Source: Rhodospirillaceae bacterium
GTDB lineage: Bacteria > Pseudomonadota > Alphaproteobacteria > TMED109
Direction of reading: 5' to 3'
NCBI GenBank assembly: GCA_902615805.1
Contig: CACMQH010000012.1
Location: 1 to 35,028, forward strand
Length of the DNA stretch: 35,028 bases
The notes below the pieces were generated by a model, which did no database searches, was not told the origin of the DNA, and saw nothing but the letters and a program-made list of their open reading frames with translations. Within the stretch, counting starts at the first letter, position 1, and each line of letters starts with the position of its first letter. The position numbers were made by a program, and so were the translations under genes. Shown here piece after piece: positions 7,988 through 35,028 of this stretch.

Positions 7988-8323
7988 ATGAATGATAAAA
8001 AAATATTTCTACCTTATAGAGCTATAACTGCTTCTCGAAAAGAAGTTAACTTTAAATTTAGTTTAGATGAAAATACCAATTCTCCGTTAGTTGTAAATGA
8101 AATAATTAATTTGTTGCTATCTAAAATTAGTAATGAAATAAATATTTATAAACCATCTAATGGAGATATAATTCAAGCTTTATGTATGGCTTTAGTTGTT
8201 AGATGTAAAATAATAGATTATGATATCAATAAAATTGAAAAAATAGTTAATAAAACTATAAAAAGAGCTTTTTCAGATGCTAAAAAAGCTGAGGTTTTAG
8301 AACCTTTAAGTGGTAATTCTTAA
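7988..8323 (+). CDS. conserved-looking hypothetical protein, 111 aa
   Basis: I do not recognise this protein. It has no signal peptide and no membrane segment. It appears to be a compact soluble alpha-rich protein with alternating hydrophobic positions in residues 35-95, ending in a charged helix and the tail EPLSGNS. A good hairpin terminator follows 17 bp after the stop, and the gene has normal local codon use, so it is probably real. It is monocistronic between the divergent DUF2237 gene and the convergent pseudoazurin gene. No function is proposed. Confidence 0.7.
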   Translation: MNDKKIFLPYRAITASRKEVNFKFSLDENTNSPLVVNEIINLLLSKISNEINIYKPSNGDIIQALCMALVVRCKIIDYDINKIEKIVNKTIKRAFSDAKKAEVLEPLSGNS

Positions 8324-17322: not shown

Positions 17323-18019
17323 AGCTAGGATATTTTTTTTTAATAAAGTTTACTATTAAATAAACAATGGGGGTATCAATAGCAGCAAATATTATTTTAA
17401 CCAAGTAATTTGCAATTATAATTTTATATACTATGTCAAAAGATAGCCCCATACCAAAACCTAAGAAAATAGTATTTACTATAATTGTATCAATTAACTG
17501 AGATATCATAGTAGAGACATTATTTCTTAACCAAAGATACCTTGAATTGGTAACTTTTTTAATCATATGAAAAATATTTACATCAATTAATTGAGCAACA
17601 AGATACGCAGTCATAGAAGCAAATATCAGTACACCTGGTAAAGTGAAAACAGTATTAAAGGCTAATACCATTTCGTCTAATGTAGAATAAGGTGTGCCAG
17701 TAAGCCAAACTTCAGAAGGTGTAAGTCTTAGTACAATACTAATTATAATTAAAGATAATAAACTACAAAAAAAGCCCACTATTACCATAAGGCTTGCTCT
17801 TGCCTTACCAAAAATTTCACTGGTAACATCTGTTACTAAAAAGGTTATAGGATAAGTTATAATACCTGCTGTTAAGGCTAGAGGAGTTCCGAACAAACCA
17901 TTGGGTAAAGATTGATCAAACAATAAAAATATTTTAGTGCCAATTATATTAGTCAGGACTAAAGTGACAACAAATACTGACATTAATATAGAATAAATTT
18001 TAATATAACTTTCATTCAT
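17306..18019 (-). CDS. queuosine precursor transporter (YhhQ/DUF165 family)
   Basis: This is a membrane protein of about 237 residues with six predicted hydrophobic segments. The signature PITFLVTDVTSEIFGKARA and the YLVAQLIDVNIFH and STMISQLIDTIIVN segments are those of the VUT/YhhQ family, which imports preQ0 or preQ1. I start at the ATG at 18019 (MNESYIKIY). An upstream ATG at 18040 would only add seven residues. It lies 33 bp from the divergent thioesterase. Uptake rather than synthesis of queuosine precursor fits a reduced genome. Confidence 0.92.
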   Translation of the reverse strand: MNESYIKIYSILMSVFVVTLVLTNIIGTKIFLLFDQSLPNGLFGTPLALTAGIITYPITFLVTDVTSEIFGKARASLMVIVGFFCSLLSLIIISIVLRLTPSEVWLTGTPYSTLDEMVLAFNTVFTLPGVLIFASMTAYLVAQLIDVNIFHMIKKVTNSRYLWLRNNVSTMISQLIDTIIVNTIFLGFGMGLSFDIVYKIIIANYLVKIIFAAIDTPIVYLIVNFIKKKYPSFSYDK

Positions 18020-20217: not shown

Positions 20218-21083
20218 TTTGTATTTATTGAAACACTTGAACTTTGTCCAAAGCCTTTAAAAGTATAAATATAAGATTTACCAGATTTTAATGGGTAAAG
20301 TTTGCCAACTGAACCTAAACTAATTCTATCATTAGCTTTAAGTTTTATTCCTTTTTCATTAAAATCATCTATTAACCACTTTAAAACATTAATTGGATTT
20401 TTCATTAAGTTGCTAGACATTGCTTCTTGAATAATTTGACCATTTTTATATTTAAAAATAGTTTTAATATTAGCCAGTTGACTGAGAAATTCTTCATTAC
20501 TCTCAACCTTAATACCCTCTCCCATAACCATTTTAGTTGCAAGCATATTAGCTGCAACTAACATATTACCATTAACTACTGTGTCCTTAGTAAATGGTAA
20601 CGCAGGTATCTCGATAAAAGGATGAATAGTTTTTAGATTTGCCAATATAGCTAAAGAGCTTTTGGCATTCATTATCTCAGAGCTTTTGATAATTACTAAC
20701 ATATCTGGTTCAATAAAGGTTCTATATGCAAAATCGGAGTTTATTAAATCATCATTTTTTAAAAACATATGCTTGTATAAAACACCGCTAGCTGGACTTT
20801 TTATATTAAATCTTTCTTGTAAAGCTTTCCCTGTAAAACCTACCTTATAGCCTATTTTATCATTATACTTTTTATTAATTAAATAATTTAATTTTTCCTG
20901 ACCACAGTAAGCCTCTTCTAAACTTATCGTATTATCTAAAACCAAAATAGGTTGTTTGCCCTCATTATTAAAAATTGTCTTAGCAATATCCATAGTTAAG
21001 CAATCATGAGAACTTAGTGACGTGCTAAAAATATAAATAAGAATTAATATTTTAGTAAATTTACCTAGAAAACAAAAAGGCAT
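20214..21083 (-). CDS. 2-keto-4-pentenoate hydratase-like (MhpD/FAH fold) protein with signal peptide
   Basis: The 289-residue protein begins with a hydrophobic signal segment (KILILIYIFSTSLSS, cut before HDC). The rest matches the MhpD-type hydratase fold: KIGYKVGFTGKALQERF, ASGVL near residue 115, a FIEPDMLVII metal-region segment and a C-terminal GKSYIYTFKGFG. Cytoplasmic members hydrate 2-hydroxypentadienoates from aromatic catabolism. A periplasmic version is unusual, and no aromatic-pathway genes are near. Metal-binding acidic residues appear partly kept (EPD). The true substrate is unknown. Confidence 0.75.
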   Translation of the reverse strand: MPFCFLGKFTKILILIYIFSTSLSSHDCLTMDIAKTIFNNEGKQPILVLDNTISLEEAYCGQEKLNYLINKKYNDKIGYKVGFTGKALQERFNIKSPASGVLYKHMFLKNDDLINSDFAYRTFIEPDMLVIIKSSEIMNAKSSLAILANLKTIHPFIEIPALPFTKDTVVNGNMLVAANMLATKMVMGEGIKVESNEEFLSQLANIKTIFKYKNGQIIQEAMSSNLMKNPINVLKWLIDDFNEKGIKLKANDRISLGSVGKLYPLKSGKSYIYTFKGFGQSSSVSINTN

Positions 21084-24417: not shown

Positions 24418-24873
24418 ATGAATTTTAAATTATTTATTACAACATTTTTTTTATGTTTTTCTTTTGAAAGCAATGTAATGGCACAGGATTGGGAAAGAAC
24501 TGATATGGGTTATGCAAATACCGAAATTTTTAAAACAACAGATGATTATCAATTTGTTTTTTATAATAGTAAGAGTTTTTGGAATGATAATCTGGGAAAT
24601 TATGGAAAAAATCATTGCAAGGGGTTAGCAAAAATAAATGCTGAAAACCTTTTTGATGGTGGAGAAGTTTATTGTGAGTCGATTGATCAAAAAAATAATA
24701 AATTTATAGTTTTACTATCAAGAAACAAAGGTGATTTTGACTCAGGTATTGGATTCTTTAAATTTATTGATGGGAATGGACCTTGGAAAAAATTTATAGG
24801 AAAAAAATGCAACTATGCTATCCAATACATTGATGATGGTTTCATGAGAATTGATAAATGCTTAATAAATTAA
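24418..24873 (+). CDS. small secreted beta-rich protein, paralogue A
   Basis: The 151-residue protein has a signal peptide ending VMA-QD. The mature part is short, beta-rich and Gly/Asp-rich: FWNDNLGNYG, C-KGLAKI, GIGFFKFIDGNG, and two C-terminal cysteines in GKKCNYAIQYIDDG and DKCLIN. It is clearly related to the protein at 26028-26510 and more distantly to 33489-33989. The layout is reminiscent of allene-oxide-cyclase-like or lipocalin-like barrels, but I cannot name the family. It is the last gene before tRNA-Ser and so marks the island edge. Confidence 0.75.
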   Translation: MNFKLFITTFFLCFSFESNVMAQDWERTDMGYANTEIFKTTDDYQFVFYNSKSFWNDNLGNYGKNHCKGLAKINAENLFDGGEVYCESIDQKNNKFIVLLSRNKGDFDSGIGFFKFIDGNGPWKKFIGKKCNYAIQYIDDGFMRIDKCLIN

Positions 24874-24937: not shown

Positions 24938-25027
24938 GGTGAGGTGGCTGAGTGGTCGAAAGCTCCGGTCTTGAAAACCGGCGAACGTGCAAGCGTTCCG
25001 TGGGTTCGAATCCCACCCTCACCGCCA
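24938..25027 (+). tRNA. tRNA-Ser (anticodon UGA)
   Basis: This is a complete class II tRNA of 90 nt with encoded CCA. The acceptor stem is GGTGAGG/CCTCACC with discriminator G, the D arm is TGGCTGAGTGGTCGAAAG, and the anticodon stem CCGGT/ACCGG carries loop CTTGAAA (anticodon TGA). The long variable arm is CGAACGTGCAAGCGTTCC and the T arm is GTGGGTTCGAATCCCAC. It reads UCA-type serine codons. Degraded copies of it recur downstream, marking it as an integration target. Confidence 0.98.
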
Positions 25028-25091
25028 TACTTATAGATACTTCCTAGACATTGAATAACTTGTTTGGACCAATTTAGGACCAGAGAGAGTT
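25028..25091 (+). repeat. att-like flank repeat, copy 1 (intact tRNA end)
   Basis: The 64 bp directly after the tRNA CCA recur almost unchanged after the tRNA relic at 33204 and, more diverged, at 30554. Core elements are ACTTCCTAGACATTGAATA and GGACCA at 25066-25071 and 25077-25082, separated by ATTTA, giving an 11-bp period. This resembles the phased direct repeats bound by tyrosine recombinases or their accessory factors, which is inference. It probably represents the current left end of the island. Confidence 0.7.
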
Positions 25092-25123: not shown

Positions 25124-25999
25124 ATGAACTATTCTTTTCCAAGAAAAAAACCTTCTCCTGTACCTAAAATAATTGTAACTCCTGAATATTTAGCAAAAGG
25201 AAGTCTTAAAAAAAGTTATATTAATACCAGACTAGCCTTTAATGTTCCTTGGATGGGAGTAGTTGCTATGGCATTTGCAAAATATCCATTTTTTTATAAT
25301 TCATTATGGCAATACATGCACCCATTAACTAAAAGTATTGAATTTGATAACTTATGTAAAAGACTTGTAATTATTTCAAAAAAAAAAGCATTAGAATTAA
25401 AACCAAAAGCTTTGATAAAAAGCTTAAAAAAAATTGGTTATAACAACTATGAAATAAAAAAAATCAATGAAGTTAATCAAATTTTTACTACTGGAAATAT
25501 GCCTTACTTAATCATGGCAACTATTGCTAGAATTTTTTTAGGAGAAGGAGAACTATTAAATAATAAATCTTTTAAAAAAAATAATCGTACCAGTATAAAA
25601 CCTGATAAGAATTATTTATTATTAATTGAACAACATCATGCAAATAAAAGTTTAAAAGAAATATATAAATCAATAAAAAGCAATTTAGGTTTACCATTTC
25701 TTAATACTGATTACAGAGCGTTTGCTAGGTGGCCTAGTTATTTTGAAATGTCATGGAAATCTTTTTTACCTACTTTAAAAAGTAAAAATTACGAAGAGAA
25801 AGTTTTAGAAATACATAACTTTATAATCAAAGAAGCTTTATTATTACCTAATCCAGATAAAATAAAATCTATACAAATTATAAATGCTGCCAAAAAAGAC
25901 AAAAAATTTAATGAAATAAAAAAAGTTGTAAACTTATTTCAATGGTTATTACCTGGTTTAATAACTAATGTGGCATTTATGAGAGAACAGATAAAATAA
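25124..25999 (+). CDS. DehI-family 2-haloacid dehalogenase-like protein
   Basis: The 291-residue, all-alpha protein matches the group I (DehI/DL-DEX) family. The diagnostic segment LNTDYRAFARWPSYFEMSWKS contains Asp196, at the place of the catalytic Asp (189 in DehI). Asn125 and Tyr128 in GNMPY sit three residues apart, like Asn114 and Tyr117 of DehI. The family releases halide from D- and L-2-haloacids. Many marine homologues are annotated only by similarity, so activity is not assured. It is the first cargo gene after tRNA-Ser, with no operon partner. Confidence 0.8.
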   Translation: MNYSFPRKKPSPVPKIIVTPEYLAKGSLKKSYINTRLAFNVPWMGVVAMAFAKYPFFYNSLWQYMHPLTKSIEFDNLCKRLVIISKKKALELKPKALIKSLKKIGYNNYEIKKINEVNQIFTTGNMPYLIMATIARIFLGEGELLNNKSFKKNNRTSIKPDKNYLLLIEQHHANKSLKEIYKSIKSNLGLPFLNTDYRAFARWPSYFEMSWKSFLPTLKSKNYEEKVLEIHNFIIKEALLLPNPDKIKSIQIINAAKKDKKFNEIKKVVNLFQWLLPGLITNVAFMREQIK

Positions 26000-26027: not shown

Positions 26028-26510
26028 TTATTGTTTTTTGTAATTTATTATATTTTGTAAAACTTTATCTGGTATATTACATTTTATTACAGTAAAATTT
26101 CTATTGTCCAAATATCTTGCTACAAATCTGCATTTATAATTTACAAGAAATTGAAACTTTCCTGTTCCAGCCAAAAATGTTGAAATGCCGCCTCCTCCAA
26201 CTTGAACATCAGTACTATCTCTTCTATAAATAGCCCACAACTTATCTCCATCTTCATTGGTCTGAATTCCCATGACTTCTAGATTAGGCTCTCCAGATAA
26301 ACTTTCAACCTTTCCAAATCCTTTAATAGTACCTATATCGCCTAAACTGTCTTTCCACATACCATCTAAAGAAAAAGTTCTATATGTCCTACTATCAGGT
26401 AATTTAGTATCTCCAGAAATAGTAGTATCCATATAAGCTTCTACCTTATAAGTTCCACCAAATACTGAATTAATATATAAAATATTTAATAATAATATTA
26501 TAAATTTCAT
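26028..26510 (-). CDS. small secreted beta-rich protein, paralogue B
   Basis: The 160-residue protein has a signal peptide ending VFG-GT. Mature motifs parallel paralogue A: FSLDGMWKDSLGDIGT, GFGKVES, EDGDKLWAIY, GGGGISTFLAGTGKF, and the C-terminal pair NYKCRFVARYLDN and VIKCN. The Gly-rich turn GTGKF plus long beta strands suggest a small barrel, possibly ligand binding, but no family name can be given safely. It converges on the DehI-like gene and is preceded by a 340-bp gene-free stretch. Confidence 0.75.
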   Translation of the reverse strand: MKFIILLLNILYINSVFGGTYKVEAYMDTTISGDTKLPDSRTYRTFSLDGMWKDSLGDIGTIKGFGKVESLSGEPNLEVMGIQTNEDGDKLWAIYRRDSTDVQVGGGGISTFLAGTGKFQFLVNYKCRFVARYLDNRNFTVIKCNIPDKVLQNIINYKKQ

Positions 26511-28288: not shown

Positions 28289-28368
28289 AACTTCTCCTTT
28301 CTTTACGTTACCTTTTTTGTTTTTATTTAAAAGAACTTTTTTTGCTTTTATTTTTATTTGTATAGATA

Positions 28369-28465
28369 TTTTGGACCACTTCAGGACCACTACATTTTTT
28401 TAACGGGGAGCCACGGCTAGATATTGGTTCTTTTTGTTTCTTGCAAAAACAAATTCCTTATTTTA
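28369..28465 (+). repeat. att-like repeat, copy 2 (flank only) with hairpin
   Basis: This is a copy of 33240-33336 with many identical blocks: TTGGACCACT, AGGACCAC, ACATTTTTTT, GGGGAG, and TCTTTTTGTTTCTTGCAAAA followed by CCTTATTTTA. It carries GGACCA at 28373-28378 and 28384-28389 separated by CTTCA. A hairpin TTTTTG/CAAAAA lies at 28431-28449. No tRNA part remains, although the preceding 15 bp still resemble the TTGAATAACTTG flank. It separates the metal-related module from the CoA module. Confidence 0.7.
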
Positions 28466-28519
28466 CTTTATATTAAGTTTTAATAATGTAAATTAATATA
28501 AAATAGACATGTATACTTT

Positions 28520-29281
28520 ATGAAAAATAATTTGATACAATTAAATTTACAAGATAATTTGGCAATTATTTTTATGAATAGCCCACCAAATAATTTAATA
28601 AATAATCAATTTTTGGATTCTTTGCAAAAAAATATTTATGATGCTGAGAAGAAAGGAGCAAGGGCATTGTTAATAACAAGCAAGATTAAACATTTTTGCG
28701 CAGGAGCAGATCCAGATTTTTTTTTAAAAAAATCTTCTAAAAAGAAAAATGATCCTATGAGGTTAATACGTATAATAGAAAGTGTAAAAATACCGACTGT
28801 AGCAGCCATCAAAGGAGCAGCTTTAGGAGGTGGTTTTGAATTAGCTTTGGGATGTGATTTTATAATTGCAGCAGATACTTCTCGTATAGGATTAGTAGAA
28901 ACCTCAGTAGGACTTATACCACTTGCTGGTGGGGTTCAGAGACTAATCAACAGAGTAGGATCAGCAAGAACAAAAGAAATTGCAATGTTCGGCAGAAGAT
29001 ATGACGCGAGAACACTAGAAAATTGGGGCGCTATAAATATGGTAGTTCCAGAACTAAATCTTTTAGATGCTTCTATAGCATTTTCAAAACAATTGTCTAA
29101 TGGTCCAACTAATGCACTAAAGGAAATAAAAAAAATAGCTGATAATACAGTTATGTACGGTATTAAAAAAGCTGATACAGAGGCAGAAAAGTCAATTAAA
29201 AATGTTCTAAAATCACCCGATGCTAAAATAGGAATAAATTTCTTAGCAGGTAAAGAGAATAAAATAAATTTTAAAGGATAG
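28520..29281 (+). CDS. enoyl-CoA hydratase (crotonase family)
   Basis: The 253-residue protein has CoA-binding/oxyanion segments KHFCAGADPDF and IKGAALGGGFELALGCDF. Both Glu expected for hydratase activity are present: one in LVETSVGLIPLAGG and one in ARTKEIAMF. It hydrates trans-2-enoyl-CoA, or the similar crotonobetainyl-CoA. The CaiB-type CoA-transferase gene begins 4 bp after its stop, so the two form an operon that may activate and hydrate a short carboxylate. The promoter is presumably in the repeat-derived spacer upstream. Confidence 0.92.
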   Translation: MKNNLIQLNLQDNLAIIFMNSPPNNLINNQFLDSLQKNIYDAEKKGARALLITSKIKHFCAGADPDFFLKKSSKKKNDPMRLIRIIESVKIPTVAAIKGAALGGGFELALGCDFIIAADTSRIGLVETSVGLIPLAGGVQRLINRVGSARTKEIAMFGRRYDARTLENWGAINMVVPELNLLDASIAFSKQLSNGPTNALKEIKKIADNTVMYGIKKADTEAEKSIKNVLKSPDAKIGINFLAGKENKINFKG

Positions 29282-29285
29282 TTGA

Positions 29286-30509
29286 ATGTCTGGGCCACTT
29301 AAAGGGATAAAAGTTGTAGACTTCACAAGAGTTTTAGCAGGACCACATTTTACGAAGATTTTGTGTGATATGGGAGCAGAGGTAATTAAAATTGAACATC
29401 CAGAAAATGGTGATTTATCAAGATTAGGTCCGCCTATTACTAAAAACTTTTCACATTATTATGTTCAACAAAATGTAGGAAAAAAATGTATTTCTTTAGA
29501 TTTAAATAAGAAAGAAGGAAGAGTTATAGTTGAACAATTGATAAAGAAAGCAGATATAGTTGCTGAAAATTTTAGACCCGGTACTTTAGCTGCATTTAAA
29601 TTAGATTATGACAGCATAAAAGACTTAAATAAAAAATTAGTATATGTTTCTATAAGTGGCTATGGACAAGATGGACCCATGAGAGGAAAAGCTGCTTTCG
29701 CTCCTACAGTTCATGCAGAATGTGGAACTGCTTTTGCAAAGTTTAAACATGAAAATATAAAATTGACTGATTTTGAAGCTATGCAGAGTGATTTTTCTCA
29801 TGCAGACGTATATACAGGTTTAGAAGCTTCTATTTCCTGTCTCGCAGCTTTAAATAATGCACAAAAAACAGGAATAGGACAGCATATTGATATTAGTCTG
29901 GCAGCTACGATGATTGCAGTTAATGAAAGAGCACATGCAGAACTATCTGGAGATAACGATAACGGTGGTGAGCCATTTGCTTTATCTGCTCCTATATCCC
30001 CTTATTTAAGACTAAATTCCGGAGAAATAATAGTTATTGCTGCAAGTCCTATTTTAAGTTTTGTTTTTTTTCGATATGCAAGAATGATGAGAAGATTAGA
30101 TTTGATTGATAATCCAAAATATAAAACTGCTAAATTAAGAAGACAAAATTATAAAGACTTAATGAAAGAAGTTAATGATTGGGTATCTACTTTTAGAAAT
30201 GCAGAAGATTTGGAAGCACAAGTAAGTGAAGCAGGATTAGCTATAGGAAAATTAAGGAATATGAAAGAATTTGCTGAAGGTCCTTGGGGAGATTATTGGC
30301 AAATAATTAGAAAAATTAAAATCGATAAGGATAATATAATTAAAATACCTGGGCTACCTTGGAAGTTTTCTCGTACAAAATGTGAACCTCAAAATCACTT
30401 AGCAAACAGAGGTATGGACAATGAAAAAATATTAGTTGATCTTGGTTATACAAAAAAAGAAATAAAGAAATTGTACTTGAAAAATATATTATCAGAAGGA
30501 AATATTTAA
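29286..30509 (+). CDS. CaiB/BaiF-type (family III) CoA-transferase
   Basis: The 407-residue protein starts PLKGIKVVDFTRVLAGPH and has MGAEVIKIEHPENGD, SLDLNKKEG, VAENFRPGT and ISGYGQDGP in order, all typical of family III transferases. The catalytic Asp is expected at DFEAMQSDFSHADVYTG near residues 165-181. It moves CoA between carboxylates. Its partner is the enoyl-CoA hydratase upstream; a CaiC-like ligase is 9 kb away in the core. A tRNA-Ser relic begins 3 bp after its stop codon, so the gene abuts a former integration junction. Confidence 0.94.
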   Translation: MSGPLKGIKVVDFTRVLAGPHFTKILCDMGAEVIKIEHPENGDLSRLGPPITKNFSHYYVQQNVGKKCISLDLNKKEGRVIVEQLIKKADIVAENFRPGTLAAFKLDYDSIKDLNKKLVYVSISGYGQDGPMRGKAAFAPTVHAECGTAFAKFKHENIKLTDFEAMQSDFSHADVYTGLEASISCLAALNNAQKTGIGQHIDISLAATMIAVNERAHAELSGDNDNGGEPFALSAPISPYLRLNSGEIIVIAASPILSFVFFRYARMMRRLDLIDNPKYKTAKLRRQNYKDLMKEVNDWVSTFRNAEDLEAQVSEAGLAIGKLRNMKEFAEGPWGDYWQIIRKIKIDKDNIIKIPGLPWKFSRTKCEPQNHLANRGMDNEKILVDLGYTKKEIKKLYLKNILSEGNI

Positions 30510-30511
30510 AA

Positions 30512-30612
30512 CCTGCAAGCGTTCTGTGGGTTCGAATTCCATCCTCACCGCCATTCTTTATGACTTCCGTGACATTGAATAACTTACGTGGACCACAGTA
30601 GGACCAAAGAGA
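30512..30612 (+). pseudogene. tRNA-Ser 3' half plus att-like flank, copy 3
   Basis: From TGCAAGCGTT (variable arm) to CCGCCA (30513-30553) this is the 3' half of tRNA-Ser with a few substitutions in the T arm and acceptor. The flank follows: ACTTCCGTGACATTGAATAA, then GGACCA at 30590-30595 and 30601-30606 separated by CAGTA, then AAAGAGAT resembling copy 1. The 5' half is missing. The rest of the 256-bp spacer up to 30765 shows a slightly more GC-rich, Arg-codon-rich stretch (30613-30717) of unknown origin and nothing else. Confidence 0.85.
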
Positions 30613-30765
30613 TATTTGAACCCATAGATAAACGTGCAAATGGTCGTTCGAGAGTTCGTATAAGGAACAGAAAAGCCCCTACTCTTTCTAAAATCTTTAC
30701 ACGTAAACTTATGTTATAAAATAGTTATAGAATAAACATTATTAATAAGTTTAATTCTTTACATC

Positions 30766-33121: not shown

Positions 33122-33203
33122 TTGAATGATATCTAAAAAACTCCGTTCTTAAAAACCGCGAACGTACAAGCGTTCCATGGATTCAATCCCACCCTCACCG
33201 CCA
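33122..33203 (+). pseudogene. decayed tRNA-Ser, copy 4
   Basis: The segment aligns to nearly the whole tRNA-Ser from the D arm on. It runs CTCCG, CTTAAAAACC, CGAACGTACAAGCGTTCC, and AATCCCACCCTCACCGCCA, with single-base losses in the anticodon stem and T loop. The anticodon position would now be TAA. The D arm and acceptor 5' strand are too degraded to pair, so it is not functional. Confidence 0.85.
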
Positions 33204-33336
33204 TGCTTATATAGATACTTCCTAGACATTGAATAACTTGTTTGGACCACTACAGGACCACAACATTTTTTTGATGGGGAGTTAAGGCAAGTAATTGGGT
33301 CTTTTTGTTTCTTGCAAAAACAGATACCTTATTTTA
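33204..33336 (+). repeat. att-like flank repeat, copy 4 (longest)
   Basis: The first 57 bp are nearly identical to copy 1 after the intact tRNA (ACTTCCTAGACATTGAATAA, CTTGTTTGGACCA). From 33240 on the copy matches 28369-28465. It thus joins the two repeat classes and shows they derive from one unit. It has GGACCA at 33244-33249 and 33255-33260, separated by CTACA, and a TTTTTG/CAAAAA hairpin at 33302-33320. The stretch 33337-33488 holds only copy 5 and no gene. Confidence 0.8.
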
Positions 33337-33390
33337 GAATCTAAATAGTTATTCAATAGTTTAGCCTGGTTATTAGGGCTATAGAAGAAC

Positions 33391-33432
33391 TGTGAAGTCT
33401 GCTGAGTGGTCGAAAGCTCCGGTCTTGAAATC
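33391..33432 (+). pseudogene. tRNA-Ser 5' half, copy 5
   Basis: GCTGAGTGGTCGAAAGCTCC and GGTCTTGAAA are identical to the D arm and anticodon arm of tRNA-Ser. The preceding GTGAAGTCT is a decayed acceptor strand. Similarity stops just after the anticodon loop, so only a 5' half is present. Confidence 0.85.
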
Positions 33433-33488
33433 CACTGAATGTGATTTAATTGCTTAACTTTAAACCACGCTAAGTAATTTAGAATCAG

Positions 33489-33989
33489 TTATTTAGTATA
33501 TTTTAAAGTAAATTCAAATTTTGAATAACCTGTTTCAGGATTAAATTCACCTTTATTCAAACCATAACCAGAGATATTTTTATATACTCCCGTACCACCA
33601 ATTATATTAGAATAACCTACGTTAGAAAAATTCTTTGTCCCACCAGGATTTTGACTTGTTCCCTCAAAGGTCATAAATATTTTACTTCCATCACTATATA
33701 TCTGAGTAACATGCCCTTTAACTGGACCACTTTTATTTATATAGTCACTATAGCCCCAATTATAGCTTTTAACTAGAGATAACCCTTCACAGTTTTTTTT
33801 CTTGTCTTTATATGTGCTTTCTAAAGAAAATATTCTTACTGAATGACCCTCTCTGTCTGTAGTAATACTATACTGTTTAGTATATTTACTTTCTTCTGGT
33901 GTGGTTTCATAAGTATATATACATTCTTCCGACTTAGCTGAAGAAATTAAAAAAATAAAAGTGTAAATTGTTATAAATAGTAGTTTCAT
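33489..33989 (-). CDS. small secreted beta-rich protein, paralogue C
   Basis: The 166-residue protein has a signal peptide ending AKS-EE. It shares with paralogues A and B the layout FSLESTYKD, GPVKGHVTQIYSDGSKIFMTFEG, and GGTGVYKNISGYG near residue 145, but lacks the two C-terminal cysteines. It has two or three N-terminal cysteines of its own. The GGTGxYxNxxG turn is also seen in small allene-oxide-cyclase-like barrels. It sits between two tRNA-Ser 5'-half relics. No function is assigned. Confidence 0.75.
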   Translation of the reverse strand: MKLLFITIYTFIFLISSAKSEECIYTYETTPEESKYTKQYSITTDREGHSVRIFSLESTYKDKKKNCEGLSLVKSYNWGYSDYINKSGPVKGHVTQIYSDGSKIFMTFEGTSQNPGGTKNFSNVGYSNIIGGTGVYKNISGYGLNKGEFNPETGYSKFEFTLKYTK

Positions 33990-34113
33990 ATTTTATCCTT
34001 AAAAAAATTTTTATATTGTTAAAAAAAACTACATATATTATGCGAGTTTTAAATTAAAAAAATATGACAACTAAGTTTATAAAAATAAAGAAGGTTTAAA
34101 CAAAGTCAGTATA

Positions 34114-34151
34114 TTCTACTGAGTAGTCAAAAGCACCAGTCTTGAAAACCA
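34114..34151 (+). pseudogene. tRNA-Ser 5' half, copy 6
   Basis: CTGAGTAGTCAAAAGCACCA and GTCTTGAAAACC align to the D arm and anticodon arm with a few G-to-A changes. Similarity ends in the 3' anticodon stem, as in copy 5. It is the most decayed recognisable copy. Confidence 0.75.
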
Positions 34152-34169
34152 ATGATACCATTTTATTAG

Positions 34170-35028
34170 TTAACTTAGATATTTAGGTCTTATTTTAATA
34201 AAAGGTAATTCTAAATATTTTCTAACTACGTGTGCTGTAAAAAAGTTAATAAATAAAATTAAAAATATATTTATTAATAAATTATCGATATTAAAACTTT
34301 TAATTAAGTCAATTATAAGCATATGCATTAGATATAAAGGATAAGCCCAATTTGCTAATTCTGATATTATATCTTTAGCATAAATATTATTTAATTTTAT
34401 GGTTCTATCTAATAAGAATATTAAACTAATACAAAATAGATAAATATGATAAAAAATTAAATTACTAGAGATTATAGAATTTTGAAAGCTAAAATTTTTA
34501 ATATATAATGAAAAATAATAATATATAAATATCAAAGAGCTAATGCCCAATAATATAACTAAAAATTTTAAGTATTTGTAATTTACATATTTTTGAAAAA
34601 AAAAGTAACTTATCCCTCCAAAAGCAATTGCATCTAATCTAAATAAAGAAACTCTTCTTATTTCACTTCCCCAATCATTATAATTTAGGTTGATTCTAGT
34701 AAAAAATATTACCAAACTTATTATTAGGCAGGTAAAAATAATTAGTTGTTTAGTTTGTATATTTTTTTTTCTTAATATAAAAGCTATAGTACAAAGAAGA
34801 GTTGGAAAAATTATATAAAATAATTCCTCAACACAAATTGACCAAGAAACAGAAAAAAAAGTATTCGATACCATTGGATAAAACATATTTTGTAAGAAAA
34901 AAAAATAGAATATTAATTCATTTTCAAAGTATCTATAAAAAAAGATATATGAAATAAGTGCAAAAAAATAAGCTGGCCATGTTCTAAAAACTCTTCTTTT
35001 AATAAAAATAATGGTATTTTTGACAAAA
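34170..35028 (-). CDS. acyltransferase family 3 (OafA-like) membrane protein, partial
   Basis: The open frame continues to the window edge, so the N-terminus is missing and about 285 residues are visible. Visible motifs are IKRRVFRTWPAYFFAL near the upstream end and SVSWSICVEELFYIIFP, the classic family pair (RRxxRxxPAY and SxxxExxFY). At least seven hydrophobic segments follow. Such proteins O-acetylate surface polysaccharides in the inner membrane. An internal ATG at 34886 is not the real start. The location at the end of the tRNA-Ser island fits a surface-variation role. Confidence 0.88.
   Translation of the reverse strand, partial: FVKNTIIFIKRRVFRTWPAYFFALISYIFFYRYFENELIFYFFFLQNMFYPMVSNTFFSVSWSICVEELFYIIFPTLLCTIAFILRKKNIQTKQLIIFTCLIISLVIFFTRINLNYNDWGSEIRRVSLFRLDAIAFGGISYFFFQKYVNYKYLKFLVILLGISSLIFIYYYFSLYIKNFSFQNSIISSNLIFYHIYLFCISLIFLLDRTIKLNNIYAKDIISELANWAYPLYLMHMLIIDLIKSFNIDNLLINIFLILFINFFTAHVVRKYLELPFIKIRPKYLS

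Follow-up and report, generated by a model that had tools for sequence, protein, structure and literature searches.

Stacked gene cassettes behind a tRNA-Ser(TGA) gene in a Rhodospirillaceae bacterium, probably inserted at the anticodon arm by a phage-type integrase

Islands of gene cassettes anchored at tRNA genes have been described in Ca. Actinomarinales (PMC7771536), Alteromonas (PMC4119200) and Ca. Methylopumilus (island fGI-2, PMC10872708). In the available parts of these reports, such additive flexible genomic islands use a tRNA as a repeated target, vary in cassette number and carry direct repeats of part of the tRNA. These repeats are tRNA 3'-end pieces in Methylopumilus and Alteromonas; the part is not named for Actinomarinales in the available text. 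The available part of one source also reports tycheposons in Methylophilaceae (PMC10872708). A second precedent comes from the phages YA3 and Ab31, for which a 64-bp attB/attP in tRNA-Ser was read from lysogens and corresponds to the last 63 bp of the tRNA-Ser gene plus one base (PMC7326022, PMC3974807). Counted on the Ab31 sequence, this stretch starts at the anticodon stem. Tycheposons, known from Prochlorococcus, are said to be elements of 4-200 kb. CIMEs and related products of tandem accretion consist of att-flanked cargo that can be mobilised in trans, and they are mostly remnants of larger elements. To our knowledge, few mobile elements are recognised in streamlined marine bacteria, yet these organisms gain and lose metabolic genes.

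The locus described here belongs to the known kind of tRNA-gene cassette islands. It lies in the window, by which we mean the whole stretch of 35,028 nucleotides analysed, one contig of a 1.18-Mb genome (G000) that is 75% complete. The window contains an intact tRNA-Ser(TGA) gene followed by partial copies. Copy 5 (33392-33443) matches tRNA positions 2-52 at 85% and copy 6 (34119-34150) matches positions 11-42 at 88%; both keep only the 5' half, as the original prediction had stated from the letters of the window. That prediction also had both copies losing similarity directly after the anticodon loop. The break does lie there, and the reading of copy 5 needed refinement: its similarity seems to stop at 42 because positions 43-52 have decayed, and in relatives that have this junction the match extends to 52. 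Copy 3, described as a 3' part only, indeed begins at tRNA position 47 and continues into the tRNA 3' flank. Within the window, the 33-base sequence of positions 10-42 has two occurrences, an exact one in the intact tRNA and one with a single mismatch in copy 5. Shuffles gave 0 matches, and the copy 5 match is not due to chance. Copies 5 and 6 are more than bare tRNA halves. Conserved sequence precedes each of them, ~130-200 bp at copy 5 and a degenerate remnant at copy 6.

We searched relatives with the tRNA and its flank. Arrays of partial copies behind the same tRNA were found in G001, G002 and G004, which belong to the same genus, and in G017 and G010 from another genus; G004 is the single amplified genome Rhodospirillaceae bacterium AG-422-C09. 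The catalogue comprises 30 distal tRNA-Ser(TGA) copies in six genomes, each array lying behind one intact tRNA. A distal copy opens with a module that we call END, continues with a core of 33 bp that corresponds to tRNA positions 10-42, and passes into the next unit, whose first module we call START. END is conserved over ~130 bp, and over up to ~200 bp in several cases, and precedes cores that border unrelated genes. It terminates in GTGAAGTCT, a distorted form of tRNA positions 2-9. Some STARTs consist of tRNA positions 43-90 and flank, sometimes with the first integrase codons, and others are unrelated to the tRNA. A family-wide search found END in two genera only, and within the array genomes it occurred, at the threshold used, only on the contig of the tRNA-Ser(TGA) locus. 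The END of the window is 95% identical to one END in G001, and a profile of END plus core made from other copies recovered copy 6 at E = 1e-9. Paired repeats of the form GGACCA-N5-GGACCA lie at +108 from tRNA position 21 in START and at -168/169 in END. The window holds 4 such pairs against 0.01 expected, and they look like putative arm sites for an integrase. The features of the window are as follows.

24938-25027, + strand: intact tRNA-Ser(TGA), the likely target gene, with the core (positions 10-42) at 24947-24979
25028-25082, + strand: START flank of the first unit, with the paired repeat GGACCAATTTAGGACCA at 25066-25082, +108 from tRNA position 21
25124-25999, + strand: DehI-family gene belonging to the first cassette
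28315-28465, + strand: truncated END module that has lost its core; arm repeat 28373-28389, END body 28423-28465
28520-30509, + strand: cassette of enoyl-CoA hydratase and CoA-transferase III genes
30510-30612, + strand: copy 3, a START module running from tRNA position 47 to the 3' end and flank; arm repeat 30590-30606
30612-30707, + strand: remnant of an integrase N-terminus, 32 codons, 72% identical to the G004 integrase
33136-33411, + strand: cargo-free mini-element, 276 bp core to core
33137-33260, + strand: copy 4, where the mini-element starts, with core positions 22-42 ahead of the tRNA 3' half and flank
33290-33400, + strand: END module, conserved before unrelated genes in the G001, G002, G004, G010 and G017 arrays
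33401-33433, + strand: core of copy 5, a predicted recombination site (tRNA positions 10-42, 1 mismatch)
33434-33488, + strand: START of the 166-aa cassette, without a tRNA 3' half and tRNA-like only to position 52
33489-33989, - strand: cargo gene for a 166-aa predicted secreted protein without Pfam or NCBIfam match
34090-34150, + strand: copy 6, a decayed END (GGTTTAAACAAAGTCAG...) with its core at 34119-34150
34170-34886, - strand: gene of the acyltransferase family, carried by the unit that follows copy 6 towards the contig end

The START junction of the 166-aa cassette recurs in G001, G002 and G017 after different ENDs. Since the same START follows the core in these genomes, the copy 5 junction is shared and is not a deletion private to G000. 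This START (window 33434-33480 and its equivalents in G001, G002 and G017) opens with an inverted repeat, GAACGTG ... CACGTTC in G001, which is possibly a terminator or a protein site. An intact native site for STARTs without a tRNA 3' half was found neither at G004 17660-17950, which seems to hold a decayed core, nor at G001 29440-29680, which seems to hold a truncated END. Several ENDs with different neighbours, in the window (28423-28465), in G001 (contig C5, 21397-21443) and in G017 (contig C15, 21116-21156), break off at about one position (CCTTATTT), which is perhaps a second recombination point. ARAGORN calls some array copies as extra tRNA-Ser genes (G004 contig C10, reverse complement, 7998-8088; G001 contig C5, 15055-15134 and 20584-20670), and attachment sites would be counted as tRNA genes by automatic annotation. 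Elsewhere in G000 (contig C14, 20912-22250), a different integrase of 391 aa adjoins another tRNA-Ser-like match, and similar pairs are present in G001 (C41), G006 (C42) and G017 (C6).

G004 codes for an intact 334-aa tyrosine integrase (PF00589 at E 8e-31; phrog_1), and the gene starts 5 bp past the START flank. The integrase unit measures 2,330 bp and lies between the tRNA and the first distal END-core, inserted ahead of the DehI unit. G000 is its empty counterpart, with the tRNA, flank and DehI gene 93.7% identical between the two genomes. Comparing filled with empty, the insertion restores the tRNA and the displaced copy stands at the far end. As in tyrosine-integrase tRNA elements generally, the integrase is next to the attachment site in G004, the tRNA is restored and an empty site exists; the window itself holds an integrase remnant only. 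Such remnants follow START in G000, G001 and G002. The integrase is intact in a single genome, the array-bearing genomes being mostly incomplete. Its nearest phage relatives, at 41% identity, are the integrases of PAJU2-like Pseudomonas phages (Ab31, YA3, Shamal), whose attP has TGGGGGA pairs at -121 and +108 around the tRNA-Ser anticodon stem-loop and 3' half. These phages resemble the array in their tRNA-Ser target, in the anticodon stem-loop plus tRNA 3' half within attP, in paired repeats of 11-bp spacing that flank the core, and in an integrase gene adjoining attP. They differ in being full phage genomes with no D-arm homology on the END side, whereas the array END carries tRNA positions 2-31 too and array units are 0.3-5 kb long, mostly without integrase, and stacked. 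Viral contigs (IMG/VR) yielded no END, core or integrase, and carriage of the units by phages is unsupported. A circular END-core-START form was not seen.

We favour, at a probability of about 85%, the reading that a phage-type tyrosine integrase built up the stack by inserting units at tRNA-Ser(TGA), with recombination in the anticodon arm. We observed the modules, their junctions, two filled/empty pairs, one intact integrase and sharing above background; from them we infer catalysis by a G004-type integrase, circular forms, movement in trans and the exact cleavage positions. In a circular unit, END would run through the core into START. A crossover at positions 26-42, in the anticodon arm, would put START behind the 5' part of the host tRNA, restoring the tRNA, and would leave END and core ahead of whatever had followed previously. 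Each further insertion, whether it used the tRNA or an END-core inside the array, would leave one END-core bearing a 5' half for its unit. Copy 5 is the END and core that close the 276-bp unit, and the 166-aa cassette begins behind it with its START; copy 6 is an older END and core. No 3' half follows either of them because the START of the next unit lacks one. Copy 3 is a START module whose upstream END and core have been lost. Most units lack an integrase and carry one or a few cargo genes, and they would therefore move only with integrase supplied in trans. In this reading, the tRNA-Ser(TGA) gene would serve as a kind of dock where gene cassettes are interchanged.

The cargo includes genes for DehI, enoyl-CoA hydratase (ECH), CoA-transferase, ZrgA, AhpC, carboxymuconolactone decarboxylase and acyltransferase, together with many small secreted proteins that fall in no family. 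Small predicted secreted proteins are encoded at 24418-24873, 26028-26510 and 33489-33989 of the window and in the G001 and G004 arrays. Recurring motifs in these proteins are LGNYG, GTGKYK and a C-terminal KC. The three from the window had no Pfam or NCBIfam match, and the proteins look like a divergent paralogous family common in arrays. Cassette order varies among genomes. The upstream flank is syntenic and the downstream content different in G000, G001 and G004, so that, as in additive islands, variable cassettes have been added at a conserved tRNA. The ECH/CoA-transferase block (window 28336-30568) is 96.0% identical between G000 and G001 over 2,235 bp, compared with 71-74% for the upstream flanks, the background being taken from 12 kb of flank. 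This suggests a recent exchange of the block between species. G001 and G002 share the 166-aa cassette at 97.7% identity, in an alignment that begins in the core. Judged from these identities, the cassettes are horizontally exchanged.

Such exchange could also proceed through RecA-type homologous recombination between END and START repeats, which would be the main reshuffler if integrase activity were rare and confined to the past. The ECH/CoA-transferase block has its edges within repeats of END and START. In the window (30509-30510), in G001 (contig C5, 23487) and in G003 (contig C59, reverse complement, 1950), tRNA position 47 follows immediately on the stop codon of the CoA-transferase gene. 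Three different units lie downstream of this junction in the three genomes, which points to homologous exchange within the START repeat as a second process acting on the array. The mini-element adds to this case, since its START and END are fused at one arm repeat (33244-33260) that is both the START arm (+108) and the END arm (-168), as does the finding of a single intact integrase. Some block boundaries inside START/END repeats count against the integrase model and fit homologous exchange; the right edge of the ECH/CoA-transferase block is a boundary in a repeat and not in the core. However, junctions with unrelated STARTs need a cut at the core, with no homology past positions 42-52, and the integrase element of G004 is complete and has its empty site in G000. 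We consider it unlikely that homologous recombination is the main reshuffler.

If an integrase inserted the units, the crossover can be bounded on both sides. In the window, an AhpC cassette and the 166-aa cassette are separated by the 276-bp unit; in G002 only a single core lies between them, which makes G002 the empty version of this array site. At positions 15, 16, 18, 21 and 25, the bases of G002 recur at the left junction of the unit in the window, and the right junction has END bases there. The crossover would thus lie to the right of 25, as five diagnostic bases at 15-25 stay with the left flank. In nine mutually unrelated STARTs, with homologous junctions counted once, the similarity to the tRNA stops at 41-52, and in most of them precisely at 42; the crossover would lie to the left of 43 because these unrelated STARTs begin after the core. 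These junctions place it within positions 26-42, essentially the anticodon arm, and so in the anticodon-arm class of tRNA integration sites. Phage relatives and stem symmetry indicate that the 7-base anticodon loop is probably the overlap. A crossover at the centre of the 33-bp core instead, on the D-arm side at positions 23-29, would agree with the symmetry of the core about position 26 and with the retention of positions 10-31 in most copies. It is improbable given that the five diagnostic bases of the window/G002 pair stay with the left flank and that the anticodon stem is where the attachment site of the related phages starts.

The junctions also bear on another scheme, in which the full tRNA was duplicated in the ordinary way and its 3' halves were then randomly deleted. 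In keeping with it, near-complete copies exist in the arrays (G004 7998-8088, G001 20584-20670) and many copies are visibly decaying. But breakpoints cluster at 41-46 in 10/30 copies, nine unrelated sequences follow truncated cores, and a uniform-breakpoint model gives P about 1e-4, a value for an interval picked after the data were seen. END is conserved upstream far past the tRNA, and the truncated copy 5 junction is common to relatives. Conserved END and shared junctions largely refute duplication with random deletion, which we hold to be very improbable. The original prediction had taken the breakpoints as signs of a crossover site at the anticodon arm or of elements carrying the 5' part, and this was largely right. 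The nine unrelated STARTs and the junction alleles bound the crossover as described, and END is conserved across unrelated cargo and across genera. The breakpoint mapping and the comparison with known att cores in tRNA-Ser that it had proposed agree with it, through the clustering above in the distal copies of six genomes and the 64-bp phage stretch. Full-length tRNA copies in relatives, which it had named as the contrary outcome, were present at the copy 5 site in 0/3, and all three show the same truncated junction.

Integrons are similar to the array in their head-to-tail cassettes, one site per cassette and sharing between genomes. The short cassettes of one to few genes and the integrase at one end in G004 would also suit an integron-type array (IntI with attC). 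However, the G004 integrase scores 30 bits on the TIGR02249 integron-integrase model, for which the cut-off is 265, the site has no hairpin fold (z 0.32 versus shuffles), the cargo genes run in both orientations and the target is a tRNA gene. Integron membership is ruled out by the IntI model score and the missing attC fold, and an origin of that type is extremely improbable. A tRNA-derived system that is integron-like in its working is possible, and we propose it tentatively: one integrase acting in trans would move integrase-less cassettes in and out, START-defective cassettes would be confined to the array, and the array would shield the tRNA gene. An assembly or single-cell amplification artefact, which fragmented genomes and at least one single amplified genome might suggest, is refuted by the same modules and junctions in five or more independent genomes of two genera and has a negligible probability.

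The stack of integrase-inserted units also differs from the other described tRNA islands. Its repeat is a 5'-half core, in contrast to the 3'-end pieces of Methylopumilus and Alteromonas, and it has END and START modules; arm sites or an integrase element are not described for additive islands in the available parts of the reports. Tycheposons, too, occur in streamlined marine bacteria as islands anchored at tRNA genes, and they combine metabolic cargo with a tyrosine recombinase. The size given for them sets them apart from the array, whose integrase unit measures 2.3 kb and whose units mostly consist of cargo alone. CIMEs share cargo between attachment sites, but the array consists of many kilobase-scale units with short standard ends. 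What is new is the dissection of small standard ends, an anticodon-arm core present as 5' halves, STARTs that leave the tRNA unrestored, and a cargo-free unit of 276 bp. A published description of this island variant was not found in the literature searched.

Copies of tRNA 5' halves, usually passed over in favour of 3'-end repeats, can mark cassette arrays. If the units are cassettes with short ends moved in trans by a phage-type integrase, END, core and arm repeats would be a search signature for single-cell genomes, and the locus would represent a concrete route for the exchange of single genes among open-ocean bacteria.
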